64,000 bases of DNA from Thermococcus sp. M39 (lineage in GTDB: Archaea > Methanobacteriota_B > Thermococci > Thermococcales > Thermococcaceae), in the NCBI RefSeq assembly GCF_012027325.1, contig NZ_SNUG01000005.1, positions 1-64,000 of the forward strand. Direction: 5' to 3'. Of this stretch, positions 32,119-51,634 are shown in pieces (position 1 is the stretch's first letter; each line of letters opens with the position of its first letter). The translations under genes and the position numbers were made by a program. The notes under the pieces were generated by a model. The model ran no database searches and was not told the origin of the DNA. It worked only from the letters and a program-made list of their open reading frames with translations.

Positions 32119-33039
32119 CTATCGTTCTTGCATTGTTTTTAAAGCAATAATTGCCGCCGCTTCTGCTTCGCTTATAAAAGGTTCTTTGAGAGTGATTTCA
32201 TATCCAAATGTTTCTTTCAGTTCATTTTCTATTAGCGGTTTAAGGAGCTCTTTAGCTCCAAAATAAAACCCCCCAGTTATAGCAAGCTTGTTTCTTACAT
32301 CTTCTAATCCCAGTCTTTTTGTTGCAGCACTATATGCTAGGGCTATCTCCTTGCTTGCATTTCTTAAAATAGAATATGCTGCACTATCTCCCTCTTTTGC
32401 AGCTTTAACGACATAAGGAGCAAAGCCTCCAATCAATGCTTTGGGATTTTTAGAGGAATATATGGCACGTATGATATCATCGGTAGTGTTAGCACTAAAA
32501 TACTCCAGAACATAGGCAGTGAGTAGTGTATTTTCTCCCCTTCCATCATAAGCTCTTAATGCTTTTACTATGCCTTCTCTCCCAACCCAATAACCGCTTC
32601 CCTCATCCCCAACTAAATGACCCCATCCTCCAACTCTTACGCTTTCTCCTTTTTCATTTATCCCATAAGCTATTGACCCAGTGCCCGCTATGAAAACTAT
32701 TCCTGGTTTAAAATTAAAACATGCAACATGGGCAACTTCATAATCTCCTTTTACAATAACTTTTGCACTTGGAAAGATTTCTGAAATAATCTCTTCAAAG
32801 AGCTTAGAGTTTCCGCCAAGCGTGCCTGCTGCCGAGATGCATACGGCTTTGACTTCTTCTCTATAGTGTCGTGATAGAGCTTGGAGAACTGCATTTTTAA
32901 TTGATTGTTTGACTACAGCGAGTGGAGAAGAATTTGGATTTCCAGGTCCGCTTTTTCCTTCTCCCAGCACAAGCCCATTTTCATCTATGAGCACTGCTTT
33001 AGTTTTTGTACCTCCACAGTCAATTCCGAGGAAAAGCAT
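32119..33039 (-). CDS. BadF/NagK-type sugar kinase, probable N-acetylglucosamine or amino-sugar kinase
   Basis: An ASKHA-fold ATPase of the BadF/BadG/BcrA family, 306 residues. The phosphate-1 loop is GIDCGGTKTKAVLID near residues 5-19, phosphate-2 IVFIAGTGSIAYG near 114-126 with the following GGWGHLVGDEGSGYWVGREG block, and the adenosine loop AITGGFYFGAKEL near 257-269. The glycine/histidine-rich block is typical of eukaryotic-like GlcNAc kinases. It is the last gene of the importer operon (binding protein, two permeases, membrane protein, kinase). It lies in a region with NagA and two SIS proteins, which supports amino-sugar phosphorylation after uptake. Confidence 0.82.
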   Translation of the reverse strand: MLFLGIDCGGTKTKAVLIDENGLVLGEGKSGPGNPNSSPLAVVKQSIKNAVLQALSRHYREEVKAVCISAAGTLGGNSKLFEEIISEIFPSAKVIVKGDYEVAHVACFNFKPGIVFIAGTGSIAYGINEKGESVRVGGWGHLVGDEGSGYWVGREGIVKALRAYDGRGENTLLTAYVLEYFSANTTDDIIRAIYSSKNPKALIGGFAPYVVKAAKEGDSAAYSILRNASKEIALAYSAATKRLGLEDVRNKLAITGGFYFGAKELLKPLIENELKETFGYEITLKEPFISEAEAAAIIALKTMQER

Positions 33040-33048
33040 TTTCTCACC

Positions 33049-33762
33049 TCAGAGCTTTTTCAGTCCCATATACCATGAAGTAATTAACCCAGCAGTATAA
33101 ATCTGCACGAGGAAGAGTATTTGGGAGAAAATTCCAAAAGTTACAGCTTTTATTGTCAGTGGGACTGTAATAAGAGGAGCTACTATGAAGCTCATTAAAA
33201 GGATATATGCAATATAGCGGCCTTTTATTATGGAGTGCACTATACCAAGATTTAGCACTCCAAGCAAAATTCCCATAGCTCTCCATGTTTTTTCCTTTGT
33301 GACTGCGGAAATTCCTCTTGTAGCATCAGGAGGGACTTGAAAAGTTATGCTGCCGTATATTATCACCGCTCCGATCATTAAAATTGCTCCTAGGAGAGGG
33401 TATATTATGTACTTGATTTTTTTGATTTCTTCTTCCTTGCTGCAGTAAATTGCTGTGATGAAAATTAAGAAATATACCAGAGCTATCGCCCGCCAAGAGA
33501 GTGTTACACCAGCGAATTCTACCCCGTGGAACTCTCTTAGCAATATTGATGTGAGTGCAGAAGCCCCACTAACTGAAGCTGTAATCAGACTATAACCAAG
33601 TCTAAGACTTATGAACAGAAAAATGTTGATTAGAGCAACTCCTAAAATACAGAAGCCTGCCAATATGCTCTTTCCTAAGTAAACTGGTACCATGTTGAGG
33701 AATACGAGTGAAAGCAAAATTGTTAATGCACCACTAATTTTTAAGATACTTCCTTCTCTCAT
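33049..33762 (-). CDS. Uncharacterised membrane protein with about seven helices
   Basis: A 237-residue protein made almost wholly of hydrophobic segments (for example ALTILLSLVFLNMVPVYLG, IALVYFLIFITAIY, AILMIGAVIIYGSI), separated by short charged loops, with KEEEIKKIK near residue 128 facing a membrane side. No family was recognised. It starts four bases after the DppC-type permease stop and ends nine bases before the kinase, so it is part of the importer operon. It occupies the place where the two ATPase genes of an Opp/Dpp system would normally lie, but it has no Walker motifs. Confidence 0.7.
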   Translation of the reverse strand: MREGSILKISGALTILLSLVFLNMVPVYLGKSILAGFCILGVALINIFLFISLRLGYSLITASVSGASALTSILLREFHGVEFAGVTLSWRAIALVYFLIFITAIYCSKEEEIKKIKYIIYPLLGAILMIGAVIIYGSITFQVPPDATRGISAVTKEKTWRAMGILLGVLNLGIVHSIIKGRYIAYILLMSFIVAPLITVPLTIKAVTFGIFSQILFLVQIYTAGLITSWYMGLKKL

Positions 33763-33766
33763 GATA

Positions 33767-34660
33767 TCACCTCTCTCTGAGCTTTGGATTTAGATAATCC
33801 TCAAGGGCTTCTCCTAGGCAGACGAATGCTATGACTGCCAAGGCTATCATAACTCCGGGAACGACTATCCATTGCCACATTCCTTTCATTACAATTATCA
33901 TCATGTTCTTGTTTGCTGTGTACATCACGTATCCCCAATCTGGATTGTTTGGGTCTCCCAAACCTAAGAACGTCAGAGATGCCACAGTTACGATGAATCC
34001 AGCTATCAAAACAGCGGCTCTTGCAAAGAGGAGGGGGATTATGCTTGGCAGTATATGTTTGAAGATTATTCTTTTATTGCTTGCTCCTAATGCAATTGCA
34101 GCCTCAACATATAGGCGGTGTTTAAGTTGGAGTGTTTGGGCTCTCACCATTCTGGCAGTTGAAGGCCATGAAATTAATGCAATGACTATTATTGTGTACC
34201 AAATGTTCCATACAGTTGAAAAGAGCGACGCAATTACTAGAAGCAACAAGAGGCTAGGCAGCATCATTATTGAGTCAGAGATGAACATTAAAAACTCGTC
34301 GAAAATTCCTCCGTAATACCCAGCCACTGTGCCTACCAGTGCTCCCATTAATATTGTGAGCAAAGCTGCCATGAATCCAACGCTTAATGATATCCTCGCT
34401 CCATAAACTACCTGCGTCCATATGTCTTTTCCCTGATGGTCAAGACCACAAGGATGCTCCCAAGAGGCAGGCACAAAGATTTGATCAGAGGCCCAGTCTG
34501 GTGTATATTTTGTGAAAAGTTGAGGAAATAGTGCCATGACAAGCAAGAATGTGAAGATTATAATTCCAACTTTTCCCATTTTATGATTCCATATAAAATC
34601 GAAGACTTCTTTTGTATTTTTAATTGTCTCAGCAAGTGCTTCCTTGTACGTCTTTGCCAT
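33767..34660 (-). CDS. ABC importer permease, DppC/OppC type
   Basis: An inner-membrane permease of 297 residues with about six helices. The N-terminal OppC helix and linker (KVGIIIFTFLLVMALFPQLF) precede the GLDHQGKDIWTQVVYGARISL block near 70-90 that defines the family. The EAA-type coupling loop is EAAIALGASNKRIIFKHILPS near 184-204. The ATG at 34660 follows GGAGGGG and leaves one base after the dppB stop; a longer frame from 34696 would overlap dppB. In Thermococcales such transporters often carry oligosaccharides rather than peptides. Confidence 0.9.
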   Translation of the reverse strand: MAKTYKEALAETIKNTKEVFDFIWNHKMGKVGIIIFTFLLVMALFPQLFTKYTPDWASDQIFVPASWEHPCGLDHQGKDIWTQVVYGARISLSVGFMAALLTILMGALVGTVAGYYGGIFDEFLMFISDSIMMLPSLLLLLVIASLFSTVWNIWYTIIVIALISWPSTARMVRAQTLQLKHRLYVEAAIALGASNKRIIFKHILPSIIPLLFARAAVLIAGFIVTVASLTFLGLGDPNNPDWGYVMYTANKNMMIIVMKGMWQWIVVPGVMIALAVIAFVCLGEALEDYLNPKLRER

Positions 34661-34661
34661 T

Positions 34662-35648
34662 TTAACCCCTCCTAATTCTTGGGTCGAGATAGGCATAAGT
34701 TATCTCAGCAATAGTAATTGCCACAATTACAGCAACTGCTATTATATAGAACGACGCTACAACAACAGGATAGTCCTTGTTCCACATTGCGTCATAGATT
34801 AAAGTTCCCATTCCGGGATAGTTGAACACTGTTTCCGTAACAACAGCACCTCCAAAGAGGAATCCCAAATCTATAGCCATCATGGTTATTACTGGAGGCA
34901 TTATGTTCCTGAGGACATGTCTCTCAACAATATATTCCTCTCTCAGACCAATGGCCCTAAGGGCTGTTACATAGTCACTTGTGTATTCCTCTGTAACCAT
35001 GTTTCTAATAGTTAAGAGATAGGAGACCGCGTAAATCTTTGAAAGGGCAACTATTGGAAGGAAGCTGTGCCAGAGCCAGTCAATCATGTGATGGAAAACA
35101 TTCTGAGGTTCAAGCTCTGATGTAGTTAGATATGGGAAAAGTCCAAGCTTAAAAGCTAAGAAATACAAGAGAACCATTCCGAGCCAGAAAACAGGTAGAG
35201 CTCTTATCCCTAAAACCACCCACAGGATTGTGGACTCCTTTAAACTTCCTCTATTTCTTGCACAGTATAATCCTAAAAGAATACCAAGCATAGAACCAAA
35301 AAAATATGCAGCTGTAACGAGACTTAGGGTGTAAGGCAATCTAACTGAGATTAAATCTATAATTGGCTTGTTATACACGGGAGACTTCATTTTAAAAAGG
35401 GAGAAGGTGAACATTCCATAAAGTATTTTAGCAGCACCGGTAATGAAATTATCCTTATACCCCCACTCTTCCAAGAGCCTCTCATATTGCTCCTGAGTTA
35501 TTTTACCTTGATACAAATATTGGTCAAAGGGGGTTCCAGGAGCTAATCTGAGCAGAGCATAAATCAAGAGAATTACAAAAATGAGCGTTATGAGCTTGTG
35601 AATCAGCTTGATTATAACATATGAAGCAAAGCTCCTCTTCATATGCAT
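34662..35648 (-). CDS. ABC importer permease, DppB/OppB type
   Basis: The partner permease, 328 residues, about six helices. The family hallmarks are LLRLAPGTPFD near residue 34, GMVLLYFLAFKLGLFP near 156, and the coupling loop TALRAIGLREEYIVERHVLRN near 224-244, followed by ETVFNYPGMGTLIYDA near 276. The start region offers GTG 35651, ATG 35648 and ATG 35642; 35648 is used because GGAG lies five bases upstream. It follows the binding-protein gene by about 40 bases. Confidence 0.9.
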   Translation of the reverse strand: MHMKRSFASYVIIKLIHKLITLIFVILLIYALLRLAPGTPFDQYLYQGKITQEQYERLLEEWGYKDNFITGAAKILYGMFTFSLFKMKSPVYNKPIIDLISVRLPYTLSLVTAAYFFGSMLGILLGLYCARNRGSLKESTILWVVLGIRALPVFWLGMVLLYFLAFKLGLFPYLTTSELEPQNVFHHMIDWLWHSFLPIVALSKIYAVSYLLTIRNMVTEEYTSDYVTALRAIGLREEYIVERHVLRNIMPPVITMMAIDLGFLFGGAVVTETVFNYPGMGTLIYDAMWNKDYPVVVASFYIIAVAVIVAITIAEITYAYLDPRIRRG

Positions 35649-35689
35649 CACCGCTCCATTTTATCGAAAAATAAGGGGAGAAAAGAAAA

Positions 35690-37483
35690 TTATCTTCTCC
35701 TTCTCAAGGCCAAAAGCGGCAGCAAGGCTAAGCCGACAATGGCTGCTGGTCCACAGACACCCTTTTCAACTGTTTGTGTTGCTGTTACGGTTTCTTTCTT
35801 CTCAACTGTTGTTGTTATGACTTCCTTCTCTTTTGTTGTTGTGGTAATGACTTCTGTCTCTTTTATCACCTTAGTTGGGCTTCCAATTAATGACCAGTAG
35901 CCAACTGTGTAATCTCTTGGATTTGGTTTCCACCCTCTATAGTGGTCAATTCTGTAGGGCGTTGCAACAACTGGGTGGTAGAGAGCTATGAACACAACGT
36001 CGTTGGCCAAGGTTTCTTCAAGCTTGTAGGCTAACTTTGGATCTCCAGTCTTCTGGAACTCATCAAAGAGCTTGTCAAACTCTGAGTTTGAGTAACCAAC
36101 TCTGTTTCCTGGATTTCCTGTTGTAAACCATGCTAAGTCAGTTGGCTTGTGAGGAACGAATCCCACAATTGCCATGTCCCATGAGCCAGCTCCCCACTTG
36201 TCCCAATAATCACCAGCCTTGTCAACTGTAACCTTCAGACCGACTTCTTCGAGATAGTGAGCGATTTCGTCACCAATGGCGTCTCTGAAGAATGAATCAC
36301 CTGGGGCTCTTGTGAGCAGATAAATCTCGAAGGGCTTTCCATCTGGTGTCTCTCTATAGCCGTCTCCGTTGATGTCCTTGAATCCAAGCTGATCAAGAAT
36401 TTGCTTGGCTTTCTCTGGATCATATGGATACAGCTTCTCCTTTGGAAGGTACTCTGCAAAGCTTCCGAAGAATGGTCCTAAGAATCCCATGCTTCCCAGC
36501 ACTGCTCCATCCGCACCATAATATTTCTGGACTATTTTATCAACTGGTAGAGCATATGCTATAGCTTTCCTGAACTCTAAGTTGTTGTATGGGAACCCTT
36601 TGTTGAAGTTAAATGCAAGCAGGTGGATTGACTTTGAGGCAGTTCTGTAAATCTGAACATTTGGATCATTTGCGACCATCTTCTTGAACTCTTCAAGGTA
36701 TTTTCCGAAGAAGTAGTGATAACCAGCGTCAAGTTCTCCAGCAGCTACCATCATGGCGAATTGGTTTCTATCTTTGATCATCTTGAAAATGACCTTATTA
36801 ACTTCCGGCTTTCCAAGATAGTGGTCTGGGAATGCTTCAAGTTTTACATATTCGTCTGGTTTTATCTCTACGACCTTGAATGGTCCGCATCCAATTAGTT
36901 GCTCTGGCTTGTCGAGTGAAGCTGTTGGATCTGGGATTATGCTCTTGTTTGTCCAGATGTGCTTTGGAACTATGAAGAGTGTTGTAAATGCCATTTCTAG
37001 GAACGTATCAGCTGGAGCTTCATTTGCATCATAGATAAGTTGTATTGTGTACTTATCAACAACTTTTATCTCCTTTAATCCCTTGAGAATCAGCGGGTCT
37101 GGATTTACAAACTTTGCAGGATCGCTTTGGAATAATTCAAGTGTGTATTTAACGTCGTCTGCAGTTACACCTTTGCCATCGTGCCATTTTGCATCTTTTC
37201 TTAGGTAGAAGGTGAGTATCTTTTTGTCTCCTTCAGTCTTGAATTCCCACTTCTCTGCTAATGCTCCAACTAGCTTGAATCCACTATCGTCCCACCTGAT
37301 TAATGGCTCGTAAATCTTGTCCAGTACAACGTTTGCATAAACAGTGCTTGAGGTCAGTGGATTAAAGGTCTTCCACTGCCTTGTTGCAAGAACAAGTTCA
37401 ATGTCCGGGCTGGCAAGGGCAGCGGGGGTTGCTACTAGTCCAGCTAAAAATAACGCCAGCAGCACATTCTTCAAAGCTTTCAT
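35690..37483 (-). CDS. ABC importer solute-binding protein with CGP-CTERM anchor
   Basis: A 597-residue SBP_bac_5 (DppA/OppA) protein. Residues 1-24 form a cleavable signal (APAALAS-like end). The family core begins near LTSSTVYANVVLDKIYEPL and includes WHDGKGVTADDVKYTLE and FRKAIAYALPVDKIV. The C-terminus has a threonine-rich linker, then VCGPAAIVGLALLPLLALRR and a terminal RR, the CGP-CTERM sorting signal specific to Thermococcales surface proteins. So it is tethered at the outer face. Such proteins in this group bind oligosaccharides as often as peptides. It heads the importer operon, with a strong TATA box at 37541-37550. Confidence 0.9.
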   Translation of the reverse strand: MKALKNVLLALFLAGLVATPAALASPDIELVLATRQWKTFNPLTSSTVYANVVLDKIYEPLIRWDDSGFKLVGALAEKWEFKTEGDKKILTFYLRKDAKWHDGKGVTADDVKYTLELFQSDPAKFVNPDPLILKGLKEIKVVDKYTIQLIYDANEAPADTFLEMAFTTLFIVPKHIWTNKSIIPDPTASLDKPEQLIGCGPFKVVEIKPDEYVKLEAFPDHYLGKPEVNKVIFKMIKDRNQFAMMVAAGELDAGYHYFFGKYLEEFKKMVANDPNVQIYRTASKSIHLLAFNFNKGFPYNNLEFRKAIAYALPVDKIVQKYYGADGAVLGSMGFLGPFFGSFAEYLPKEKLYPYDPEKAKQILDQLGFKDINGDGYRETPDGKPFEIYLLTRAPGDSFFRDAIGDEIAHYLEEVGLKVTVDKAGDYWDKWGAGSWDMAIVGFVPHKPTDLAWFTTGNPGNRVGYSNSEFDKLFDEFQKTGDPKLAYKLEETLANDVVFIALYHPVVATPYRIDHYRGWKPNPRDYTVGYWSLIGSPTKVIKETEVITTTTKEKEVITTTVEKKETVTATQTVEKGVCGPAAIVGLALLPLLALRRRR

Positions 37484-37540
37484 GTTTATTCACCCCTTCT
37501 TAGTAGCAGAGCATTTCTCATTAATACACATGTTATTATT

Positions 37541-37626: not shown

Positions 37627-38640
37627 TCAAAATCTATCTACGAACTTTACAAGTTTCTTCGGAGAGTCCGGGTCATATCCCTTAAAGATGCTGAGATAGT
37701 ATGCAATGATTTGAAACGGCAAAACGGCAGGTATAACCGCTAAGCTTTCATCCCCTTGCCATGGTGTCCTTATGATGTTTGGATAATCAAGATTAGAGTT
37801 TGTTATTAAAATTGGCTTTAGGTGTTCTATTTCTTTGAAAATTCTCAAAACAGCATCAAATCTGTTCGTTTTAGGGGCAGTTACAAAATATCCAAATTTG
37901 TCTCCGTGATTTGTAAGTGCTATTGGGCCATGTCTGAATTCCAATGCTGGAAAGACTTCGTTTAATGTGTATGTAGTTTCTCTTATCTTCAGGGCTCCTT
38001 CAAGGGCTGCAACGTAGCCAGAACCTGAACCCAAGTGAATAAAAGCCTCTTTCTCTGCAAGCTCTTCGGCAAGTTTCTTATATTTTGCTTCGTTTTTAAG
38101 AATGCTTTTTACAACATTTGGCATTTTTTCTAACTCTTTTTCCAGCTCTTCTGCACGGGTTAATTTGATTGCAATTTTTTGAAGGATGTATGTAATTGCA
38201 GAGAATGATTTTGTAGCTGGGATATTTGGCTCTTCTGCATTCTCTGCTATTACCAAGAAATCAGATACCTCTGTTATTTTTGAGCCTTCATTACAAGTTA
38301 CCCCTATCACTATAGTCCCTTCTTGTTTTGCTAATTTTATCGCCTCTATCACTTCTGCAGTGTTTCCAGAACGGGAAGAAGCAATTACAAGAGAATTTTT
38401 AGCCTTTTTTACAAAATGAAACATAAACTCAGATGCTGGGAGGGCAAATGTTTGAATATTATTGGATACCTTATTTAAAACGTAAGCTCCAGCAAGAGAT
38501 GAAAAATAAGAGCTACCACATCCAATGAAAATTACTCTGTTGAAATCATTTTCAAGAATTCTCTCAACTTCTTCTCCGATTTTTAGATTTTTTAAAATCC
38601 CAGGAGTTTCTCGGATGGACTTTATCATGTTGTATTCCAT
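37627..38640 (-). CDS. glmD: SIS-domain amino-sugar phosphate deaminase/isomerase, GlmD-like
   Basis: Two SIS domains (about 25-165 and 195-330) in 337 residues, like the isomerase half of GlmS without the glutaminase. Conserved pieces are FIGCGSSYFSSLAG near residue 39, IASSRSGNTAEVIEAI near 85-100, LGSGSGYVAALEGALKIRE near 197-215, and EFRHGPIALTN near 232. In Thermococcus kodakarensis such a protein (GlmD) deaminates glucosamine-6-phosphate to fructose-6-phosphate in chitin catabolism. Here the context (NagA, kinase, glycosidases) fits the same reaction. The ATG follows GGAGGTGA by four bases. It lies 35 bases after the secreted GHL10 gene, so the two are probably co-transcribed. Confidence 0.8.
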   Translation of the reverse strand: MEYNMIKSIRETPGILKNLKIGEEVERILENDFNRVIFIGCGSSYFSSLAGAYVLNKVSNNIQTFALPASEFMFHFVKKAKNSLVIASSRSGNTAEVIEAIKLAKQEGTIVIGVTCNEGSKITEVSDFLVIAENAEEPNIPATKSFSAITYILQKIAIKLTRAEELEKELEKMPNVVKSILKNEAKYKKLAEELAEKEAFIHLGSGSGYVAALEGALKIRETTYTLNEVFPALEFRHGPIALTNHGDKFGYFVTAPKTNRFDAVLRIFKEIEHLKPILITNSNLDYPNIIRTPWQGDESLAVIPAVLPFQIIAYYLSIFKGYDPDSPKKLVKFVDRF

Positions 38641-38675: not shown

Positions 38676-41396
38676 TCAGCTAGAAATGAAATATGTCATA
38701 TTGTCCATAACCATAACCTCGAAAGTTCCCGTAAATTCATTGTTTCCTGCATTAAGTTTGTTTTCATTCTCTGCTGTTACTGTAACTTCAATTGTTATGA
38801 CATTCTTCCCAACACTGACAGTATCTGGAAGTATAGCTTTGTTTAAAACAAACCGGACAATTTTAGTTTCATGTGCCTTTAGGATCGGTATCTCAACTTT
38901 TAAGCTTGTCTTCATGTTCTCTTTTCCTATTGTGAGTGTCAGTGTTATGTTTTCTGCATCAACGTTTCCATAGTTTGTTAGGGTTACTAAAAGAACAGCA
39001 CCTCTTTCTTTGATGCTTATTCCAACATCTGGACTCTCAAGTCTTGGCTTGATTGTTCCCCATCTGAAGTACACTATTCCCTCAGCAGGTTTAAGTGGTA
39101 TTTCTTTGCTCTTCCTTGAAACAAAGTATATTGCATTGAACCAAAGTCTGTAGTTGTAATTTGAATCCAGAACACTGTTTGGCGCATAGTTCAAGTCTCC
39201 ACTTGTTAGCTCTGGGTGGAAGCTAAACAGAACTATCTTTCCGTGGCCATATTTGGAGTATATTACTGCAGCAGAGTTCTTGATCACGCTATCTACATAG
39301 CTCTGGTTGAAGTCTCCCCAGCCATAGCTGAATGTTCCTTCTTTGTGGTCGGTCGAGACATATTTAATGAGCTCAACATACGGGGCAACGTCAATTCCTA
39401 GAGGAGTGTCTTTTCCTAAGTCATATGGCTTGAACACTGGTCCGTTCCAGTAAATTGCGTCAAATCCATCTTTGAATCCAAATACAAGTGGGTTGCTTTC
39501 GTTTGTAACTTGGACGTGCACAATTCCAACTCCAAGCCACCAGTTTGGCCAATTCTTTAGCTCTGCATCAACAAGCTGAACTTTGGATGTTGGCTCGTTG
39601 TAGCCTTTTATCACTGCATAGCCTCCTGCACAAACACCAATTAATCCTCCACCGCCAGCTAAGAACTCTGCAAGCTTTTCTGCACCTTCCTCACCCAACA
39701 GTTTCGCTTCCCAAGTCCCGCTCCCTGGTGGGAGAATTAGCAGATCGTATCTGCTAAGTGCACCTGCTTTAATGCTACCGTTGGAAATTATATCATACTT
39801 GAATCCAAGCTCTTTCAGCACATCATTTATGGTGTAGTTGTACCCAACATCAAGCAGTGCGATTTTTGGAGGTAATAGTGGAATGACTTTAGCATCTGGA
39901 AGCTTCTTAATGGAAATTTCATTAACTGCTAGTTTCTGAATTTCTGCTTTTATTGAATCGATTTCATCTTTATCTCCAACGAGGATAATAGAGCCTCTTG
40001 GAACCTCAATACCATTGACTTTTATGTCTTCTGTGAGCATATATCCGTCAAATTCTCCAGCATAGAGTCCCTTATTAATTAGTGAGAGAGCTTTTATAGT
40101 ATCTTTAGCTTCCATTGTGTATTTTGGTTCTTCTGCTGGCAGGATTACTAAGAGTGCCTCTTTGTTTCCAAGCTCCGAGAGAGCATACCCTTCCTCAGCA
40201 ATTACGTCTTCAAGAGGAACGCTGTATGTTTGAAGCCCAACAAGTGGAACGCTCTTTTCTTCTGCAACCTCTACTACATGCCCTCTGACAGTTCCAACCC
40301 AGCTCACTGGCTCTCCATAATCTTTAAAGTATGCCATGGGGATTAACCAGTCTACACCTAGCTTAACGAAGTCGCTCCATACCTGCCCATAGTGCAGTAA
40401 TTGGAACTCTTCTGGATAGAGAATGTTGTCCCTTGTCCAATCCGGCATAAGAGCTGCTGATACAATTGGAGTTTCTCCATTCCATGCTCTTAGTGAGTGT
40501 ACGAAGGCTGTTATGTTTCCTACATAAGAATCAACATCTTTTCTTCTGAGCTCAAACCACTTAACTATATCTGGGTCTCCTTTGATGTATAGCTTGAAGA
40601 TGTAGTATGGATCTTTTGGCCCTGCAGTGCTTCCATCTGGTAGTGGGACGTCATTGTAGAAAGTGTGTCTTACTGCGAATATGATCTTATCTACATTGAT
40701 TCCCATTTGCCTTGCTCTTTCAATGTCCTTTGGTGAGAAGCTGTAAACCATATGGGGGTATCTGATGTAGTCTAAGTGTATTCCATCAAAGCCCATTGAA
40801 ATTAGCTCTTTTATTATGTTCTCAAGAACCTCGAGATACTTTGTATTTGCCAGCCTAACCCTACCCTCAACTGGATAAGCTGTCCAGTTGCTCTTTGCTT
40901 TTCCAACATGCCATATTGGGTCTGTTTTTCCGAAGAACTCTTTGTCATAATGCACAATTATCCAGGCGTGCATCCTTATCCCGTTTTTGTGAGCCTCTTC
41001 AAGAAGTGGTTTTAGGATGTTTGTTGTATTGTATGGATATGCTGGGTATGTTCTTCCTGGATAAACACTGCTGGGATAGACTAAGTAACCGCTTGTTAGC
41101 TTCACTTCTAAGAAGACATCAGTAATCCCAGCTTCTTTGAGTTCTTTCACAAGCTCCTCCGCTGCCATTTTTAGAGCCTTTTCTTTTATATCCTCGGGAA
41201 TTGCTGGATAGACACTTTTGTCGAAGGGATTTTGATATCCAAGTTGCTCAAGTGCTTCCTGATAATAGACCTTATAAGTGCTTGGCCACATCCAAACTCC
41301 TACAATTTGCTGTTCTTCAGCAGAAACCTGTGGAACTAAAGCTAGAGACATTACTAGAAGCAGAGCCAGTGTAAAGGTTGCAACCCTTTTCATCAT
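38676..41396 (-). CDS. Secreted GHL10 glycoside-hydrolase-like / amidotransferase-like / CARDB fusion
   Basis: A 906-residue exported protein. Residues 1 to about 26 are a signal ending near VSA. From about 30 to 420 is a TIM barrel of the GHL10 (DUF187, COG1649) family, with WMWPST at the start, HAWIIVHY near 148 and the catalytic-acid-type GFDGIHLDYIRYP near 209-221. From about 505 to 760 is a class I amidotransferase-like (BPL_N type) domain with LILPPGSGTW and a nucleophile-elbow GLIGVCAGGYAVIKG near 591-605. From about 795 to 885 is a CARDB-type beta domain (TLTNYGNVDAENITL). GHL10 includes E. coli DigH, which cuts peptide-free peptidoglycan strands. The target here is unknown. The ATG at 41396 follows GAGGTG by seven bases. 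Confidence 0.8.
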   Translation of the reverse strand: MMKRVATFTLALLLVMSLALVPQVSAEEQQIVGVWMWPSTYKVYYQEALEQLGYQNPFDKSVYPAIPEDIKEKALKMAAEELVKELKEAGITDVFLEVKLTSGYLVYPSSVYPGRTYPAYPYNTTNILKPLLEEAHKNGIRMHAWIIVHYDKEFFGKTDPIWHVGKAKSNWTAYPVEGRVRLANTKYLEVLENIIKELISMGFDGIHLDYIRYPHMVYSFSPKDIERARQMGINVDKIIFAVRHTFYNDVPLPDGSTAGPKDPYYIFKLYIKGDPDIVKWFELRRKDVDSYVGNITAFVHSLRAWNGETPIVSAALMPDWTRDNILYPEEFQLLHYGQVWSDFVKLGVDWLIPMAYFKDYGEPVSWVGTVRGHVVEVAEEKSVPLVGLQTYSVPLEDVIAEEGYALSELGNKEALLVILPAEEPKYTMEAKDTIKALSLINKGLYAGEFDGYMLTEDIKVNGIEVPRGSIILVGDKDEIDSIKAEIQKLAVNEISIKKLPDAKVIPLLPPKIALLDVGYNYTINDVLKELGFKYDIISNGSIKAGALSRYDLLILPPGSGTWEAKLLGEEGAEKLAEFLAGGGGLIGVCAGGYAVIKGYNEPTSKVQLVDAELKNWPNWWLGVGIVHVQVTNESNPLVFGFKDGFDAIYWNGPVFKPYDLGKDTPLGIDVAPYVELIKYVSTDHKEGTFSYGWGDFNQSYVDSVIKNSAAVIYSKYGHGKIVLFSFHPELTSGDLNYAPNSVLDSNYNYRLWFNAIYFVSRKSKEIPLKPAEGIVYFRWGTIKPRLESPDVGISIKERGAVLLVTLTNYGNVDAENITLTLTIGKENMKTSLKVEIPILKAHETKIVRFVLNKAILPDTVSVGKNVITIEVTVTAENENKLNAGNNEFTGTFEVMVMDNMTYFISS

Positions 41397-41430
41397 TGCA
41401 CAACACCTCATTCATATTGATGCTGTAAAA

Positions 41431-42758: not shown

Positions 42759-42811
42759 GCTCTTTCACCTGTTTTCATGTTATATTTAAAATTTGGCAGC
42801 ATAACAAATAT

Positions 42812-42830: not shown

Positions 42831-42860
42831 ATTGGCGCAAAAAACATTTTGGTGAAGCTT

Positions 42861-44949: not shown

Positions 44950-44951
44950 CT

Positions 44952-45683
44952 ATGATTGAGGAATATTATAACATAATTAATGAACTACTTAAAAGAATCA
45001 TGGAGGAGGAAAAAGAGAACATTGAAAAAGCTGCAGAAATCCTCGCAGAGAGCATTAAAGAAGGTGGAATACTGCATGTAATTGGAGCTGGACACTCAGC
45101 AATGCTAGGGGAGGAGCTTTTTTACAGGGCTGGTGGGTTAGCGCTGGTTAATCCAATCCTTGATACTGATATAAACATCTCTCACGGTGCTGAAAAGTCA
45201 ACAGCAATGGAGAAAATAGAGGGATATGCAAGAATTTTGCTCAAAACAGCGAAAGTCCAAAAATGCGATGTAGTGATGGTAGTCTCAACTTCAGGTGTCA
45301 ATCAGTTTCCCGTAGAGGCAGCTTTAACTGCAAAAGAGCTGGGGGCCAAGACAATAGGAATAACCGCTGTGGAATACTCGAAGAGCTTAACTCCAAAGAA
45401 CAAGTTTGGAAAGAGGCTTTTTGAAGTTGTAGACTTAGTAATTGATAACAAAGTTCCTCCCGGAGATGCAGTGCTGAGCATAGAGGGCTTTGAGATGAAG
45501 GTTGCCCCAGTTTCAACGATAACTAACTGCTTCATAGCCAACACGATAGTAGCTTTAACGGTTAAAAAGCTCGTTAAGGAAGGCATTAGACCGCCAGTAT
45601 GGATAAGCGCTCATTTGCCTAGAGCTGAGGAACACAACTCAAAGCTCTTCGAGAGATATGGGAACAGAATAAAGCTGTTCTGA
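44952..45683 (+). CDS. SIS-domain sugar-phosphate isomerase-like protein (UPF0309 type)
   Basis: A single SIS domain of 243 residues. Sugar-phosphate-binding features are HVIGAGHSAMLGEELFYRAG near residues 37-56, VVSTSGVNQFPVEAALTAKE near 113-132 and the serine-rich turn after it. The C-terminus ends with WISAHLPRAEEHN. Members are predicted sugar isomerases, and the fold is shared with MurQ etherase and phosphoheptose isomerase. The sequence is too short for MurQ. The ATG at 44952 follows AGGTGG by five bases. Placement between GNAT and NagA implies an amino-sugar phosphate substrate, which is inference. Confidence 0.75.
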   Translation: MIEEYYNIINELLKRIMEEEKENIEKAAEILAESIKEGGILHVIGAGHSAMLGEELFYRAGGLALVNPILDTDINISHGAEKSTAMEKIEGYARILLKTAKVQKCDVVMVVSTSGVNQFPVEAALTAKELGAKTIGITAVEYSKSLTPKNKFGKRLFEVVDLVIDNKVPPGDAVLSIEGFEMKVAPVSTITNCFIANTIVALTVKKLVKEGIRPPVWISAHLPRAEEHNSKLFERYGNRIKLF

Positions 45684-45692
45684 GGTGGTTGT

Positions 45693-46832
45693 ATGATTTT
45701 AACGAATGCAAAGCTCTACACTCCTCTTGAAGTCATTGAGCCTGCAACCGTTGTAATTGAAAATGGCATAATTAAGAAAGTCTTTAAAGGCCTTGTCAAG
45801 GACGGAATTGATTTAGAGGGCAAAATTCTAGCTCCGGGATTCATAGATACCCACATTCACGGCTGCTATGGATTTGACACCAATGATGCAAAAGTTGACA
45901 GCTTTTTAGGAATGAGCAAAGCCCTAGTTAAGCACGGTGTCACGGCTTTCATACCCACAACTGTCACTGCTTCCCATGAAGTTCTTTTGAAAGCCTCAAA
46001 AGCTGTTGTGGAAGCTATAAGAACTCAAGAGAAAAAGCTAGAGGGAGCAAGAATCTTGGGATTGCATTTAGAAGGCCCGTATATAAACCCCGAGAAAAGA
46101 GGTGCTCAGAATCCAGCTTATATCAGAAAGCCAAGTTTTGAAGAATTTCTTGAGTATTGGGAGGCTTCAAATGGAAACATAAGAGAGATAACAATAGCAC
46201 CTGAAGTCGAAGGTGCATTGGAGTTCATAGAAAAAGCCGTTGAACTTGGTGTCATTGTTCAGCTTGGACATACTAATGCAACTTATGAAGAAGCTAAAAA
46301 AGCCATCTTAGCTGGAGCAAGTAAAGCGACTCACCTCTTCAACGCTATGCGCGGAATTCACCACAGAGATGTCGGTGTAGTGGGAGCTTGTTTAGAGAGC
46401 GAAAGCGTATTCGTTGAGCTAATCTGCGATTTAATTCACCTCTCCCCAGCGGCAATAAAGTTGGCTTATAAAATAGCAGGGAAGCATAGGATAACACTCA
46501 TCACAGATGCAATAAGTGCGACTGGGCTACCGGATGGAGAATATGAACTTGGAGGATTAAAAGTTGTTGTTAAAGATGGAATCTGCCGCCTAGAGAACGG
46601 TGCTTTAGCTGGAAGCACCTTAACAATGGACAAAGCAATTAGAAACCTAGTTAAAATTGGAATTCCTATCCAAGATGCTCTCATAATGGCATCATACACC
46701 CCAGCAAGGGCTATAAGCGAAGAAAAGCTTGGCTTAATAAAACCAGGAAACAAAGCTGATCTCGTAGTTTTGGATGAGAAACTCAGAGTTGAACAGACAT
46801 ACGTGAATGGTGAGTTAGTCTTTGAGCTTTAA
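45693..46832 (+). CDS. nagA: N-acetylglucosamine-6-phosphate deacetylase
   Basis: An amidohydrolase-fold enzyme of 379 residues that removes acetate from GlcNAc-6-phosphate. Metal and substrate motifs are APGFIDTHIHGCYGFDTND near residues 48-66, HLEGPYINPEKRGAQ near 125-139, QLGHTNATYEEA near 190, the THLFNAMRGIHHRD block near 212-225 and the catalytic aspartate in TLITDAISATGLPDGEY near 268-284. It lacks the first-metal HxH of two-metal amidohydrolases, as is common for NagA. In T. kodakarensis chitin catabolism deacetylation occurs at the disaccharide stage, so a bacterial-style NagA implies a different route here. Its end overlaps the convergent DUF917 gene by 50 bases. Confidence 0.9.
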   Translation: MILTNAKLYTPLEVIEPATVVIENGIIKKVFKGLVKDGIDLEGKILAPGFIDTHIHGCYGFDTNDAKVDSFLGMSKALVKHGVTAFIPTTVTASHEVLLKASKAVVEAIRTQEKKLEGARILGLHLEGPYINPEKRGAQNPAYIRKPSFEEFLEYWEASNGNIREITIAPEVEGALEFIEKAVELGVIVQLGHTNATYEEAKKAILAGASKATHLFNAMRGIHHRDVGVVGACLESESVFVELICDLIHLSPAAIKLAYKIAGKHRITLITDAISATGLPDGEYELGGLKVVVKDGICRLENGALAGSTLTMDKAIRNLVKIGIPIQDALIMASYTPARAISEEKLGLIKPGNKADLVVLDEKLRVEQTYVNGELVFEL

Positions 46833-47901
46833 TTTTTCTTTTCTCTATCGGTATGTACTTGACATTAAATCCAAAATGTCGCGGCCCTAAGATTTTTAGT
46901 CCTTTTGGGCTTCTCCAAACCTTTGGTGCTTTGAATCCGAATACCACATACTCTCTTCCAGCTTTTAGTTCAGAATTTATAACTGGTTCTCCTTCTATTG
47001 TTAGTATGGTTATCAAATCTGGAACTGTAACATCAATCTGATTGTTCCTCCATGAGATTATGTTCTCATTTTTGAACCATATCCTGTAAGATTCTCCCTT
47101 AAATTCATCAATTCCTTGGAGTTCAACTTCCCCAACTGTAAAACCATTTTCATTTTTCCACTTTAGAAAAATGCACTCTCCTTTAAAAAGAAGAAATCCT
47201 CCCTCTTTTAAAAATTTCAGAATCCAATCGTCTTTTTCTCTCAGTATTTTTCCAAGCTTCAGTGCATAGCTTAAGCTGTCCCTAATCAAAATTTCTTTAG
47301 AAATCTTCCCTTTTATTGGATGGGAAGCAACTCCAACTTTGGACTTGATTGATGAAACAATACTTCTAACAAGTTTCTCAGCGTTTATGTCATCTTTAAT
47401 TTTCGGAACTATCATAACGTCTCCATGGAGGGTAACTACAGAAAAAGGGGTCATTTTATGTCCATGAAGATAATAAACAGAGTGGTGAAGCTCTGGGACG
47501 GCTCTTCCTGCCATGTCCCCATCAACTGTTGGGATTCCAAGTCTTGCTGCAGTTGAAAGGGCAACAGCTGTACTATTTCCTCCCATTTCAGTTGGGATAA
47601 TGGCAAAGAATTCTTCATTTAAAAAGCTTTCAAGCTCTATAAGTGCTTCTGCTGCCAAATTTCTATATTTCCTGTCTCCATTAATTGGCCCTACAAAATA
47701 TACGCTCACAGTTCTCTTGTGGTTAGGGATTTTATTGATACTAATAAGCTTGAACTCTTTTCCTTTTTTGAGTTCTTTTTTAATAAGCCTCCATCCATTC
47801 TTTGGACTACCACCGCCCCCGCATCCTAGCACAGTACTTCCTCTTATTATATCTGCTAAATCCTCCTCATCTAGCGTTATTTCGTTGTCAATTGTTTGCA
47901 T
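46783..47901 (-). CDS. DUF917 (S-methyl-thiohydantoin desulfurase-like) protein
   Basis: A 372-residue member of the DUF917 family: N-terminal STVLGCGGGGSPKNG near residues 27-41, FAIIPTEMGGNSTAVALSTA near 98-117 and IPTVDGDMAGRAVPELHH near 122-139. These proteins are usually encoded with hydantoinases and one branch degrades sulfur hydantoins, but most have no proven reaction. The ATG (47901) has no Shine-Dalgarno and lies about 26 bases from the TATA-box centre, so its transcript is probably leaderless. The last 50 bases overlap nagA on the other strand. Confidence 0.75.
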   Translation of the reverse strand: MQTIDNEITLDEEDLADIIRGSTVLGCGGGGSPKNGWRLIKKELKKGKEFKLISINKIPNHKRTVSVYFVGPINGDRKYRNLAAEALIELESFLNEEFFAIIPTEMGGNSTAVALSTAARLGIPTVDGDMAGRAVPELHHSVYYLHGHKMTPFSVVTLHGDVMIVPKIKDDINAEKLVRSIVSSIKSKVGVASHPIKGKISKEILIRDSLSYALKLGKILREKDDWILKFLKEGGFLLFKGECIFLKWKNENGFTVGEVELQGIDEFKGESYRIWFKNENIISWRNNQIDVTVPDLITILTIEGEPVINSELKAGREYVVFGFKAPKVWRSPKGLKILGPRHFGFNVKYIPIEKRKIKAQRLTHHSRMSVQL

Positions 47902-47922
47902 GATTATGACTAATTTTGTTAT

Positions 47923-47932: not shown

Positions 47933-47993
47933 CTTTTGCTAATATTTTTATGGTACTATAACAATAATTTGCAAAAAATTGAAAAGAATGAAC

Positions 47994-48539
47994 TCACTTT
48001 GATGAAGAGTTTATCAGCTCAGAGAACAGTTTAGGAGTATAAACGTTTGCAAGAATTGTGTAGTGGCTGACGACATTGCTTTCGAGCATGAACTCCTCGA
48101 TTTTCTCCTTTAATGTTCTAAAGTCCTTCTCAAAGAACCTGAAGAGGAAATCGTACTCACCAATATATTCGCTGACTTCGTATATCCTGGGCTCTTCCAA
48201 GGCTTTTGTAATGAAATCCTTTACCGCCTCGGCAGAACAGCCAGGTTTAAGCTTAATTAGAACATCTGCTGATGCTAGCTTTAATTTGTCAAACACTAAG
48301 AACCCTCTGACTTTGATTATCCCTTTCTCCTCTAATGCCAGTCTCCTCCTTCTTGCAGTTGGTACTGAGACATTGGCTATCTTTGCCAAATCTGTATCAG
48401 AGATTCTTCCGTCATCTCTTAAAGCCAGCCAAATTAGAATATCGATTTCGTCGAGGTAGTCCTTGAGAATCTCTTTAAAAAATTCAAGCTCTTTCTTATA
48501 CCTTGCCTCATTTTTGTTTACCAAATTTTTCACCTCCAT
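47994..48539 (-). CDS. Lrp/AsnC-family transcriptional regulator
   Basis: A 181-residue regulator: winged-helix DNA-binding part near 30-80 (LDEIDILIWLALRDDGRISD, then VSVPTARRRRLALEEKGIIK), then an RAM/AsnC ligand domain from about 85 (DVLIKLKPGC, YIGEYDFLFRFFEKD). An N-terminal extension of about 28 residues precedes the usual start. ATG 48539 has its GGAGGTG inside the first codons, so TTG at 48524 is a credible alternative start. Located between DUF917 and the oxidoreductase operon in the carbohydrate island, it is the obvious candidate for local control. Confidence 0.85.
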   Translation of the reverse strand: MEVKNLVNKNEARYKKELEFFKEILKDYLDEIDILIWLALRDDGRISDTDLAKIANVSVPTARRRRLALEEKGIIKVRGFLVFDKLKLASADVLIKLKPGCSAEAVKDFITKALEEPRIYEVSEYIGEYDFLFRFFEKDFRTLKEKIEEFMLESNVVSHYTILANVYTPKLFSELINSSSK

Positions 48540-48663
48540 GAGAACTACTGGGGTATTCTTAGCAATCTGGTTATCAAATTTTAACTTATTTAAAACCCCG
48601 TGGTTTAAAAACCTATTGGCGGTTTGTTAATAGAAAATGGAGCAAAGTAAGAAAATTAAAAAA

Positions 48664-49623
48664 TTAAATTGTTATCTGCTTGTCACTCTTTGAGGCCCTA
48701 TACAATGCGCTCACTGCTTTATGAACTTTCAAGCCATCAACTTCATTAACCACTGGCTTTGTACCATTTTCAATGCATTCAAGGAAGTGCTTTAACTGTC
48801 TCAGATACATTTCTTCAACGGGTTCGCTAAAGTTGCCCTCTTCAAGGATTTGCATCTCTCTTTTTGAAATTCTGTAGTCCCCTCCAAGATATCCATCAAC
48901 CGTAACAGTTCCATTGGTAGCTTGCAGTCCCCATTTTCTCCATCTGTGCTGAGCGGTCCATGTCTGCATTAATGTTGAAATGGCTCCACTCTTATGGACA
49001 AAAGTTGCTACAGCATTATCCTCTATCGTGGCATCTTCTTCAAGAGTCCAGCATCTTCCGTAGACTTTCTTTATGTCTCCAGCGTACCAGAGGAAATAAT
49101 AAATTACATGCACTGCGTTTTCATTTATCATTCCGCCACTTTTTCCTTTGTCTTTTATCCACTCATTCCTAGGAGTCCTTCCTAAAGCTATATGCCACTG
49201 GAAGAGAACATCTCCAAGCTCGTTGTCCAGATAATCCTTTACCTTCATGAAAAGTCCATGGAATCTAAGGCTAAACGCCACCATGAGTTTATTCGTTCCT
49301 TTGGCTTTCCTGTAGATTGCTCTTGCGTCATAAATATCAGCGCCCATGGGCTTTTCAAGGAGAACGTGGAATCCATTTCTCAAGGCATATAAAGCTTGTT
49401 CTCTGTGCAGATGGGGAGGTGTTGCAATTATTACTCCATCTGGGCTCTCATTCTCAAGCATCTCTTTATAATTTGTATAAACTGGAACTTTGTACTCTGC
49501 TTTCACTTTTTCAAGGATCTCTTGCTTGATGTCGCAAACTCCTGCTATTTCCACGTTTGCCATTTTCATGACTTTCAAATGCAACTGCCCCATGCTTCCG
49601 GCACCGATGAGAGCAATTCTCAT
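48664..49623 (-). CDS. Gfo/Idh/MocA-family NAD(P)-dependent sugar oxidoreductase
   Basis: A 319-residue dehydrogenase. The N-terminal Rossmann motif is IALIGAGSMGQLHLKVM, followed by VCDIKQE at the ribose-binding site and ATPPHLHREQALYAL near 70-84. The catalytic EKPMGAD lysine is near 92 and the AVHVIYYFLW histidine segment near 175. Substrates of this family are sugars, inositols and glycosides. It starts five bases after a TIM-barrel epimerase gene and is the third gene of a glycosidase-isomerase-oxidoreductase operon, an arrangement that recalls routes through 3-keto sugars. Confidence 0.87.
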   Translation of the reverse strand: MRIALIGAGSMGQLHLKVMKMANVEIAGVCDIKQEILEKVKAEYKVPVYTNYKEMLENESPDGVIIATPPHLHREQALYALRNGFHVLLEKPMGADIYDARAIYRKAKGTNKLMVAFSLRFHGLFMKVKDYLDNELGDVLFQWHIALGRTPRNEWIKDKGKSGGMINENAVHVIYYFLWYAGDIKKVYGRCWTLEEDATIEDNAVATFVHKSGAISTLMQTWTAQHRWRKWGLQATNGTVTVDGYLGGDYRISKREMQILEEGNFSEPVEEMYLRQLKHFLECIENGTKPVVNEVDGLKVHKAVSALYRASKSDKQITI

Positions 49624-49628
49624 TTATA

Positions 49629-50426
49629 TCACCCGAATATCTTTTTTAGAGAGGTGAATGAGTCTTCAGCGGCTTTAACGGGATCTGCTAAGTATGGCGG
49701 CACTTCTGGAAGGATGTACCCGTCATATTTCACTTCTTCAAGAGCTTTTCTAACCTCACTCCAGTTGACGCTCCCGCTGAGAGGAATTCCAAACTTAAGT
49801 TCGACTAAGTTAAAGTCCTTAACGTGAACTTGGAGTATCTTGTCTCTAAGAACTCTTATCCAGTGCTCTGGCAGTGAGTGAGGTATTGTGTTGCCTACAT
49901 CAAAATAGGCCCCAACATTCTCACAGTTTATTTCGTCTAAGAATTGCTTGAACTCTAATGGCCCCGCAAAAACTCTGTTCCACACATTCTCCAGTCCTAT
50001 CTTAACCCCGTATTCCTCTGCAATTTTTGAAGCTTCTTTTACGAATTCTGATGCCTTTTCAAAGTGCTTTTCATAGGCCAAGCTTGGAACTCCAACTCCG
50101 GGAACAATTAGTATAAGCTCTGCCCCTAAAAGTGATGCTGCCTCACATTCTGCTTTGACGACTTTCAAGGCGTTTTCTTTGTCTGTGATAGGATTGAAGC
50201 GCCAGAACAAGCCAGTTGCAACACTGGGTATCTCTATGTCCACGCTTTCGGAAGTTTCTTTGATTGTTTTAAACTTGGTCTTGAATTCGTCTTTTCCAAA
50301 ATGCTCAAGGTCCTCTAATGCTAATCCGACCTCATAACCAACATAGCCAATTTCTTTTGCAGCTTTGAGGGCTTCTTCTATTGAAAATGTTTTCGGAAAG
50401 CTCCAACAGTTAATTCCAAATTTCAT
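49629..50426 (-). CDS. Xylose-isomerase-like TIM-barrel epimerase/isomerase
   Basis: A 265-residue AP-endonuclease-2-like barrel. Metal ligands of the family are seen as IGLENVWNR near residues 142-150 (glutamate), GAYFDVGN near 174-181 (aspartate), VHVKDF near 205-210 (histidine, aspartate), and the closing GYILPEVPPY near 240. The start is ATG 50426, five bases after AGGTGG, overlapping the upstream glycosidase stop by four bases. It likely isomerises or cleaves the product of the neighbouring GHL enzyme together with the Gfo/Idh dehydrogenase. Confidence 0.83.
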   Translation of the reverse strand: MKFGINCWSFPKTFSIEEALKAAKEIGYVGYEVGLALEDLEHFGKDEFKTKFKTIKETSESVDIEIPSVATGLFWRFNPITDKENALKVVKAECEAASLLGAELILIVPGVGVPSLAYEKHFEKASEFVKEASKIAEEYGVKIGLENVWNRVFAGPLEFKQFLDEINCENVGAYFDVGNTIPHSLPEHWIRVLRDKILQVHVKDFNLVELKFGIPLSGSVNWSEVRKALEEVKYDGYILPEVPPYLADPVKAAEDSFTSLKKIFG

Positions 50427-51634
50427 ATCTTCCACCTCTCAAAGAGCTCCTTTATCTTGAGGAAATTTTTCTCGGGAGTCCAGCCATATGAGTAAAAACT
50501 CACACCATCAATTGGAGAGTCCAAAGCCAATTTAAGCTGTTCTTCAATGTCCTCTGGAGTTGTTGGCGGCCATGATGCCAAACCAAGAATTAGGAGCTTA
50601 TCCTTCAAGTATTTTCTTGCTATTCTAGTTTCATATGGTATCCTGCAAATGGATTTTCCAAAAGGCTTGACATAAATCATTATCTTCACTGCATCCACAA
50701 TTTCCACAAGCTTTTTGTAGTCTTGACCCAAAAGCCAAGCCCCAGAAGGAGGATATAAATCAGCGCTTATCTGCGCTTTAGGATTGTTCTTTTTAACTAT
50801 CTTTGAAAGCTCTTTTAAGAGAATACTTATTTGTCCTGCTCTAAACTTTAGCCACTTCTTAATTAGCTCGTTTTCGATTATTTCCCGTGTAAACTCAAGA
50901 TATGTTGCTTCCAAGTAGTCATCATCTTTACAGTAATATGAGTTTGGAAGGTATTTAACGTGCCATTCAACAATCTCTTTTAGAGTTTCTCTAACCTCTT
51001 CTAGGTCGAGATTATGTTTTAAGGCTTCAGCTTTGCAGTGCTCACAGAAACAAGGGGAAAGAGCAAGATTCAGCAGAGGAGTTCCATACGTTAGGGGAAT
51101 CTCTGGATATCGTATGAAATCAAACTCAAACTCATCGAACTCATACTTTTCTGAGAGCTCCTCTATCATAAGTGAAAGGGTTTCTCTTACAAATGGGTTT
51201 GAGGGGCATAGAAACATTCTTTTATAGCCTGGATGGGAACCATAGATATCTTTAACTCCAAAATCTAAGCTGTCTCTAACAGCTTTCTCCCATCTAAGTG
51301 TGGGGAACCAGAGAACACTTTTAATTGAGTTCTCTTCACAGGCTTTGATGAACTTTCCCACAACATCTCCTTTAACCTCTTTTGAAGGCTTAGGTCTTAG
51401 CTGAGGAGGTAAGTGCGAGTACCTTTCCCTATCGGGAATCCAATAGACTGCATTTTCTTCGGAAGTGTATGCTCTCTTTTTAGGATTCTGGAAAATTATA
51501 TTAGGTCCAGGCCAGTCTTGTCGCTCTTCAATATAGCGAACAGCTAGGCTTGCGTGGGTGAATCCATAATGAGAGATTTTTGATATTGCTTCTTCGTTAA
51601 AGTCCCAAGGATGAATCCATACGCCTTTGTACAT
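50423..51634 (-). CDS. Cytoplasmic glycoside-hydrolase-like (GHL) TIM-barrel protein
   Basis: A 403-residue protein without signal peptide, resembling the hypothetical glycosyl hydrolase (GHL) barrels. It starts GVWIHPWDFNEEAISKI. Central acidic segments are YEFDEFEFDFIRYPEIPLTYG near residues 163-183 in the position where the secreted GHL10 has its LDYIRYP motif. ISADLYPPSGAWLLGQDY and SFYSYGWTP follow near 296 and 380. A CEHC pair near 197 may bind metal. It heads the operon with the isomerase and oxidoreductase genes. The shared DFIRYP-type motif suggests that the secreted and cytoplasmic enzymes act on related glycans. Confidence 0.7.
   Translation of the reverse strand: MYKGVWIHPWDFNEEAISKISHYGFTHASLAVRYIEERQDWPGPNIIFQNPKKRAYTSEENAVYWIPDRERYSHLPPQLRPKPSKEVKGDVVGKFIKACEENSIKSVLWFPTLRWEKAVRDSLDFGVKDIYGSHPGYKRMFLCPSNPFVRETLSLMIEELSEKYEFDEFEFDFIRYPEIPLTYGTPLLNLALSPCFCEHCKAEALKHNLDLEEVRETLKEIVEWHVKYLPNSYYCKDDDYLEATYLEFTREIIENELIKKWLKFRAGQISILLKELSKIVKKNNPKAQISADLYPPSGAWLLGQDYKKLVEIVDAVKIMIYVKPFGKSICRIPYETRIARKYLKDKLLILGLASWPPTTPEDIEEQLKLALDSPIDGVSFYSYGWTPEKNFLKIKELFERWKI

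Follow-up and report, generated by a model that had tools for sequence, protein, structure and literature searches.

In a 64-kb stretch of Thermococcus sp. M39 DNA (the window), positions 32119-51634 carry a gene island that is probably a horizontally mobile catabolic unit for oligosaccharides or glycoconjugates containing an N-acetyl-hexosamine, most likely N-acetylglucosamine (GlcNAc). An earlier note had read these genes as an amino-sugar catabolic system that includes a secreted hydrolase and dedicated uptake genes, perhaps directed at bacterial wall or glycoconjugate debris. The core of that proposal held up, on a NagA that exceeds its model cut-off and on a swap of uptake systems around the same enzymes in other genomes.

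The genome of the window (G000, 2.28 Mb, 54 contigs) was placed in a comparison set of 94 Thermococcales genomes (G numbers). Among the island genes, the order-wide searches covered the ceramidase-like gene (Cer), the secreted barrel, M14, the cytoplasmic barrel (GHLcyt), NagA and the second SIS protein (SIS2). The results showed a strong sequence match to Cer in 7 of the 94 genomes and a complete block of 16 genes in 6 of these 7 (G000, G090, G019, G021, G005 and G007), which represent three genera; the co-occurrence on which the earlier note had staked its proposal was thus found. The secreted barrel gene and the M14 gene were each found in all six of these genomes and in none of the others, and GHLcyt occurs in the six and as a broken copy in G088. 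Were the genomes independent, two genes would have an identical set of six with a chance of about 1 in 8 x 10^8 (94 choose 6), but because the genomes are not independent and the genes are linked, the true statistical weight is much lower. The island modules differ in order and orientation in G019 and G021, which belong to one genus, and the flanking genes differ from genus to genus, indicating that the block stayed together through rearrangement. The G+C content of the G005 and G007 islands is 6-8 points under that of their flanks, consistent with a recent arrival in these genomes; the window island lies about 1-2 points under its surroundings, and the G019 and G021 islands equal their flanks. 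A single search of genome contigs returned one match, a near-identical locus in Thermococcus sp. GB_MAG1_027, the nearest named relative of G000 that we found.

The Shewanella GlcNAc pathway, whose name NCBIfam models carry, uses a BadF-type NagK, NagA and the SIS-type NagB-II to convert GlcNAc to GlcNAc-6-phosphate (GlcNAc-6-P), glucosamine-6-phosphate and fructose-6-phosphate in turn. The island NagA exceeds its equivalog cut-off (TIGR00221, 374 vs 225.65 bits), as its earlier naming would have it. The kinase is present in all six islands and carries the GGWGH...GDEGSG motif, as do human NAGK and 8zo3, its closest solved relative and a kinase of both N-acetylmuramic acid (MurNAc) and GlcNAc. 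It had been called a NagK-like BadF kinase; the BadF family and the likeness to NagK/MurK stand, but the score is under the NagK_SO3507 equivalog cut-off (NF046058, 145.7 vs 370). The SIS protein (37627-38640) matches TIGR01135 over the isomerase half only and, judged by this match, corresponds to a GlmS-like enzyme reduced to its isomerase half. Its former label of GlmD-like deaminase was apt for the SIS type, here GlmS isomerase-like, but the protein scores far under the NCBIfam equivalog cut-off for GlmD (118.7 vs 580), and also under that for NagB-II (101.7 vs 430).

NagA and SIS2 form an adjacent pair in 11 of 11 genomes, namely the six island genomes, G074, G088, G080, G093 and a small bacterial-looking contig of G086. 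In G074, G088, G080 and G093, the pair comes after a longer SIS protein and HPr of the phosphotransferase system (PTS); EI is present in the first three, and the G093 contig ends just beyond HPr. The G074 locus has mannose-type EIIA, EIIB and EIICD, and the G088 and G080 loci have galactitol/ascorbate-type EIIC with EIIB. Neither the BadF kinase nor the Dpp transporter is present in these four loci. Since a PTS delivers phosphorylated sugar, the shared SIS-SIS2-NagA core would most simply use 6-phospho-N-acetylhexosamine, and the comparison indicates a core acting on a 6-phosphorylated sugar. With PTS exchanged for ATP-binding cassette (ABC) transporter and kinase around one core, Shewanella-type amino-sugar catabolism (NagK, NagA, SIS deaminase) is well supported as a prediction. 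In a SIS2 tree, the four PTS-type sequences group with full support and the island clade is not well supported; because G088, from the window's genus, falls inside the PTS-type clade, transfer of the PTS-type locus from one genus to another is probable.

The PTS genes were also recorded in their own right (EI, HPr, EIIA, EIIB and EIIC/EIID at G074:C1:1336955-1348406, G088:C1:645000-664999, G080:C1:264000-283999 and G093:C28). HPr occurs in 11 of the 94 genomes, and a literature search of incomplete coverage returned no paper on PTS in Thermococcales. In three loci (G074:C1:1339146-1340438, G088:C1:648935-650233 and G080:C1:269661-270959), EIIA and EI have as their neighbour a Cdc6/Orc1-like AAA+ protein with about 69% identity from genome to genome. 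The PTS-type SIS proteins (G074:C1:1343667-1345349, with homologues in G088, G080 and G093) are extended at the N-terminus by about 200 residues; this part matches no Pfam family and may be a GlmS glutaminase domain that has degenerated.

SIS2, previously listed as a second SIS protein, lies above the PRK02947 cut-off (312 vs 135) and matches NagS. In MurQ, the catalytic residues are Glu83 and Glu114. The alignment showed Arg at the Glu83 column in every SIS2 row, and we rejected SIS2 as a MurNAc-6-phosphate etherase (MurQ) on this ground; the Glu114 column, where the alignment is uncertain by about two columns, holds Ala in island SIS2 and Glu in the PTS type. The Streptomyces NagS is a GlcNAc-6-P dehydratase with defined essential residues, and the distant homologues tested in the same paper showed no action on GlcNAc-6-P or negligible activity (PMC12680351). 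All four essential residues (His53, Arg64, Glu94 and Asp179) are conserved in SIS2, which with the equivalents of Ser54, Ser119 and Ser121 keeps seven NagS positions, whereas Ser91 is changed to Thr and Asn228 to His in all ten Thermococcales SIS2 sequences.

The binding protein exceeds the cut-off for the CGP-CTERM anchor (TIGR04288, 25.2 vs 21), and its PF00496 match and the PF00528 matches of the permeases agree with the surface-anchored Opp/Dpp-type system described before. Its homologues outside the islands are only 28-36% identical; between genera, DppC is 80-87% and DppB 83-89% identical. No Dpp ATPase gene lies in the window island, and the permeases (33767-35651) are without ATPases in every island checked, implying that the ATPase is shared from another operon. 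We found three Dpp ATPase pairs elsewhere in G000; an orphan pair to serve the island was not among them, every pair examined sitting in its own complete operon. The 237-aa membrane protein (33049-33762), which the earlier note had passed over, is present in all six islands with 39-49% identity between genera.

The secreted 911-aa protein exceeds the Pfam cut-offs for DUF4015 (PF13200, 44.1 vs 27) and BPL_N (39.3 vs 24.2), and Cys594, His732 and Glu734 are invariant in its amidotransferase-like domain. Described earlier as a secreted GHL10 fusion, it is indeed secreted, with a barrel fused to another domain, but GHL10/DigH membership gives way to DUF4015 (GHL10 26.2 vs 27.9). The cytoplasmic barrel is likewise GHL-type and in its expected place, but under the GHL10 cut-off (24.7 vs 27.9). 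Cer exceeds the cut-off for the N-terminal ceramidase domain (PF04734, 52.4 vs 32.1), consistent with the ceramidase-family amidase proposed for it, and scores 17.6 against the 1200 of the full-length neutral ceramidase equivalog (NF041649). His87, His179, Glu349 and Tyr379, the putative zinc ligands, are invariant in 10 sequences, and Ser220 is kept within Thermococcales. Cer has no signal peptide and is therefore predicted to be cytoplasmic; because ceramide and N-acyl-glucosamine are both 2-acylamino-1,3-diols, it is plausibly an N-acyl-amino-sugar amidase. In the M14 protein, the HGTE, NRD and HEF motifs are invariant, and its start is more likely at 42849 than at 42777 because the G090 homologue starts there. 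It scores far under the MpaA equivalog (25.1 vs 157), and the idea of a murein peptide amidase of that type was not sustained.

The PDB relatives of the Gfo/Idh protein include inositol and 3-keto-glycoside dehydrogenases, and those closest to the TIM barrel are MJ1311 (3wqo), followed by D-tagatose 3-epimerase. The Lrp gene is present in all six islands and in a remnant in G088. At this site, by wtpA and an amino-acid permease, G088 retains Lrp and TIM together with Gfo/Idh in truncated form and GHLcyt in two parts, at 90-97% identity to their window counterparts; a DUF917 relative is the only further island gene there, and a CUT1 ABC transporter is found instead. Decay of the Gfo/Idh-TIM-GHLcyt operon after the other island genes were lost suggests, without proof, that it depends on them. 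The DUF917 gene itself, also passed over earlier, is present in G090 and, at another place in the block, in G019, is missing at G021, G005 and G007, and appears loosely linked, coming and going with the island. The bacterial homologues of GHLcyt are about 24% identical and sit in sugar ABC clusters. On rhizobial and Aminobacter plasmids (L113, L117), they are clustered with an AstE-like amidohydrolase, a D-serine-dehydratase-like protein, RidA and an amidohydrolase, which hints at a pathway for sugar-amino-acid conjugates.

Compared with the Shewanella pathway, the island has three enzyme types and the reaction order in common, but its kinase and SIS protein are under the Shewanella equivalog cut-offs, and it adds a Dpp-type transporter, the secreted barrel, SIS2, the ceramidase-like amidase, M14 and others. 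The Thermococcus kodakarensis chitin route includes GlmD and a Dpp-type transporter; a SIS-type deaminase and this type of transporter are common to both systems. That route runs through ChiA, Dac and GlmA (PMC6566704), whereas the island has a kinase and NagA where T. kodakarensis uses Dac and GlmA, a difference that the earlier note had pointed out correctly. A PIG-L gene of G000 was dropped as a Dac candidate, since by eye it lies among GH4-like, major facilitator superfamily (MFS) and galactose-type genes; no GlmA was recognised beside it, and no genome-wide GlmA search was made. This PIG-L deacetylase adjoins the GH4-like protein and the MFS transporter (G000:C2:324201-327677, L109), a possible separate acetylated-sugar locus.

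Bacterial clusters share further parts. On Nitratireductor and Martelella plasmids, a NagB-type gene is followed by SIS2, a NagA-type amidohydrolase and a ceramidase-like gene, and then by a sugar ABC transporter; the SIS2-NagA-Cer core is common with the island, but the transporter is of the CUT1 type, NagB stands in for SIS, and M14 and the secreted barrel are missing. Rhizobium has GntR-SIS-NagA-SIS2, Planococcus and Priestia have nagE-nagA-nagB-GntR-SIS2, and in Carnobacterium SIS2 adjoins an ascorbate-type PTS. What these parallels show is repeated use of the parts in sugar catabolism; they do not identify the archaeal substrate. A literature search, again of incomplete coverage, found no paper describing this gene set, or Thermococcales and peptidoglycan. 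The island appears to be a known pathway type in a new form, with several uncharacterised enzymes (Cer, the NagS-like SIS2 and the secreted glycosidase-amidotransferase-like fusion).

We propose that the secreted DUF4015-type enzyme would cut an external substrate, and that the fragments would be imported by the CGP-CTERM-anchored binding protein and DppBC, which would be served by the Dpp ATPase pair of some other operon. M14, Cer and GHLcyt may then trim amide-linked and glycosidic substituents. In the best-supported step, predicted from sequence alone, the freed N-acetylhexosamine would be phosphorylated by the BadF kinase and deacetylated by NagA, and the GlmS-like SIS protein would yield fructose-6-phosphate and ammonia. 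SIS2 may perform NagS-like C2-C3 chemistry within the same pool of 6-phospho-amino-sugars, Gfo/Idh and the TIM barrel may process a companion sugar, and Lrp would regulate the island. Several points weigh against this scheme. The kinase and SIS protein are under the NagK, GlmD and NagB-II equivalog cut-offs, and GlcNAc as the substrate is therefore an inference; the same applies to the roles of Cer, M14, GNAT, SIS2, Gfo/Idh and TIM. There is no ABC ATPase in the island, and every Dpp ATPase pair examined in G000 belongs to a complete operon. The co-occurrence amounts to about three lineages of a linked block, with a statistical weight below what 6/94 suggests, and the AlphaFold2 models of Cer and the secreted protein, built on two-row alignments, were unusable (mean predicted local distance difference test score 34.7 and 36.9).

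Other substrates were weighed against this reading. The core has precisely the look of a GlcNAc route, and an alternative chitin/chitobiose pathway, in which imported GlcNAc oligomers would pass through NagK, NagA and a deaminase in place of Dac and GlmA, is possible though rather doubtful: a glycoside hydrolase family 18 (GH18) chitinase with carbohydrate-binding modules CBM5/12 and CBM2 lies about 1.1 kb from the G005 island (G005:C1:916461-918776, L017), but no GH18 was found in G000 or the other four islands, and such a pathway leaves Cer, M14, SIS2, Gfo/Idh and TIM unexplained. Recycling of archaeal material, such as Thermococcales S-layer N-glycans, GlcNAc lipids or exopolysaccharide, would suit a habitat rich in archaeal debris, and a glycopeptide-type substrate would account for the peptide-type transporter and the amidases; yet the patchy presence (6/94) argues against housekeeping, and we consider it unlikely. 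The island could also be two unrelated neighbours, one operon for amino sugars and one (GHLcyt-TIM-Gfo/Idh) for a different sugar, as GHLcyt homologues in sugar ABC clusters without NagA and the G088 operon without the rest at its site might suggest; all six islands, however, retain the GHLcyt operon, the rearranged ones included, and G088, which has lost the rest, has it in broken form, which makes this improbable.

Scavenging of bacterial peptidoglycan would have the secreted enzyme cut strands, the peptide-type transporter import muropeptides, M14 and Cer strip the peptide, the kinase take MurNAc and GlcNAc, and SIS2 remove lactate. The MurNAc/GlcNAc kinase as closest solved relative, the relation of SIS2 to MurQ and of its family to NagS, the Dpp-type transporter with M14, and the resemblance of the secreted barrel with its Cys-His-Glu amidotransferase-like domain to glycosidase/amidase fusions all point this way. 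However, SIS2 has Arg where MurQ has Glu83, the MpaA and GHL10 models are under cut-off, no muropeptide-specific enzyme was found, and in place of the SPL loop of Tannerella MurK (PMC10465942) the kinase has the GGW that GlcNAc kinases share with the dual kinase 8zo3. Plain GlcNAc oligomers or glycoconjugates fit the gene set as well as wall material does. We hold peptidoglycan scavenging to be quite unlikely, and give as little credence to the broader idea that hyperthermophilic archaea feed on bacterial-wall or similar amino-sugar-peptide debris through a secreted glycosidase/amidase fusion of a new kind, a ceramidase-like amidase for N-acyl amino sugars and a SIS2 with a new elimination on 6-phospho-N-acyl-hexosamines. 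As the wall-specific tests failed or stayed open, we settle on catabolism of N-acetylhexosamine oligosaccharides or glycoconjugates.

The gene calls were checked by open reading frames and by Pfam and NCBIfam scans of the window proteins, and all genes named earlier were located (Table 1). Two divergent sets, minus-strand (Cer, secreted barrel, SIS, binding protein, DppB, DppC, membrane protein, kinase) and plus-strand (M14, GNAT, SIS2, NagA), are followed by DUF917, Lrp and the minus-strand Gfo/Idh-TIM-GHL operon. No tRNA was found within the window.

Table 1. Genes of the island at 32119-51634 of the window (TM, transmembrane).
Feature	Position	Strand	Evidence
BadF/NagK-type N-acetyl-amino-sugar kinase	32119..33039	-	PF01869 134 bits; 8zo3 E 1.1e-42
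237-aa integral membrane protein, ~8 TM segments	33049..33762	-	hydropathy; no Pfam family
DppC/OppC-type permease	33767..34696	-	PF00528; Opp4C 240 bits
DppB/OppB-type permease	34662..35651	-	PF00528
Family-5 solute-binding protein, signal peptide and CGP-CTERM surface anchor	35690..37483	-	PF00496; TIGR04288
SIS-type sugar-phosphate deaminase/isomerase, GlmS isomerase-like, EFRHGP motif	37627..38640	-	TIGR01135 186.6 bits; alignment
Secreted 911-aa protein: signal peptide, DUF4015/GHL barrel, class-I amidotransferase-like domain, C-terminal beta domain	38676..41411	-	Pfam; alignment
Cytoplasmic neutral-ceramidase-like amidase (Cer), N-terminal domain only	41511..42758	-	PF04734 52.4 bits; 4wgk/2zws matches
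Cytoplasmic M14 zinc carboxypeptidase/AstE-like amidohydrolase	42849..44024	+	PF00246 71.5 bits
GNAT acetyltransferase	44029..44949	+	PF13527 77.8 bits; present in 6/6 islands
SIS2, NagS/UPF0309-family sugar-phosphate lyase/isomerase	44943..45683	+	PRK02947 312 bits; NagS 9eol E 2.6e-43
NagA, N-acetylglucosamine-6-phosphate deacetylase	45693..46832	+	TIGR00221 374 bits
S-Me-THD/DUF917 protein	46783..47901	-	PF06032/PF20906
Lrp/AsnC-type regulator, probable local regulator	47994..48539	-	PF13412/PF01037
Gfo/Idh/MocA sugar dehydrogenase	48664..49623	-	PF01408 96 bits
TIM-barrel sugar epimerase/isomerase	49629..50435	-	PF01261 108.9 bits
Cytoplasmic GHL-type barrel (GHLcyt)	50423..51634	-	GHL10 24.7 bits, under cut-off

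The island would provide Thermococcales with another amino-sugar route, this one based on a kinase, in addition to the chitin route already known, and it offers a clean natural experiment in which an ABC transporter with a kinase, or a PTS, feeds one enzyme core. It also points to testable uncharacterised enzymes, some of them common to archaea and bacteria. If the substrate were the bacterial wall, archaeal scavenging of bacteria would become directly testable.

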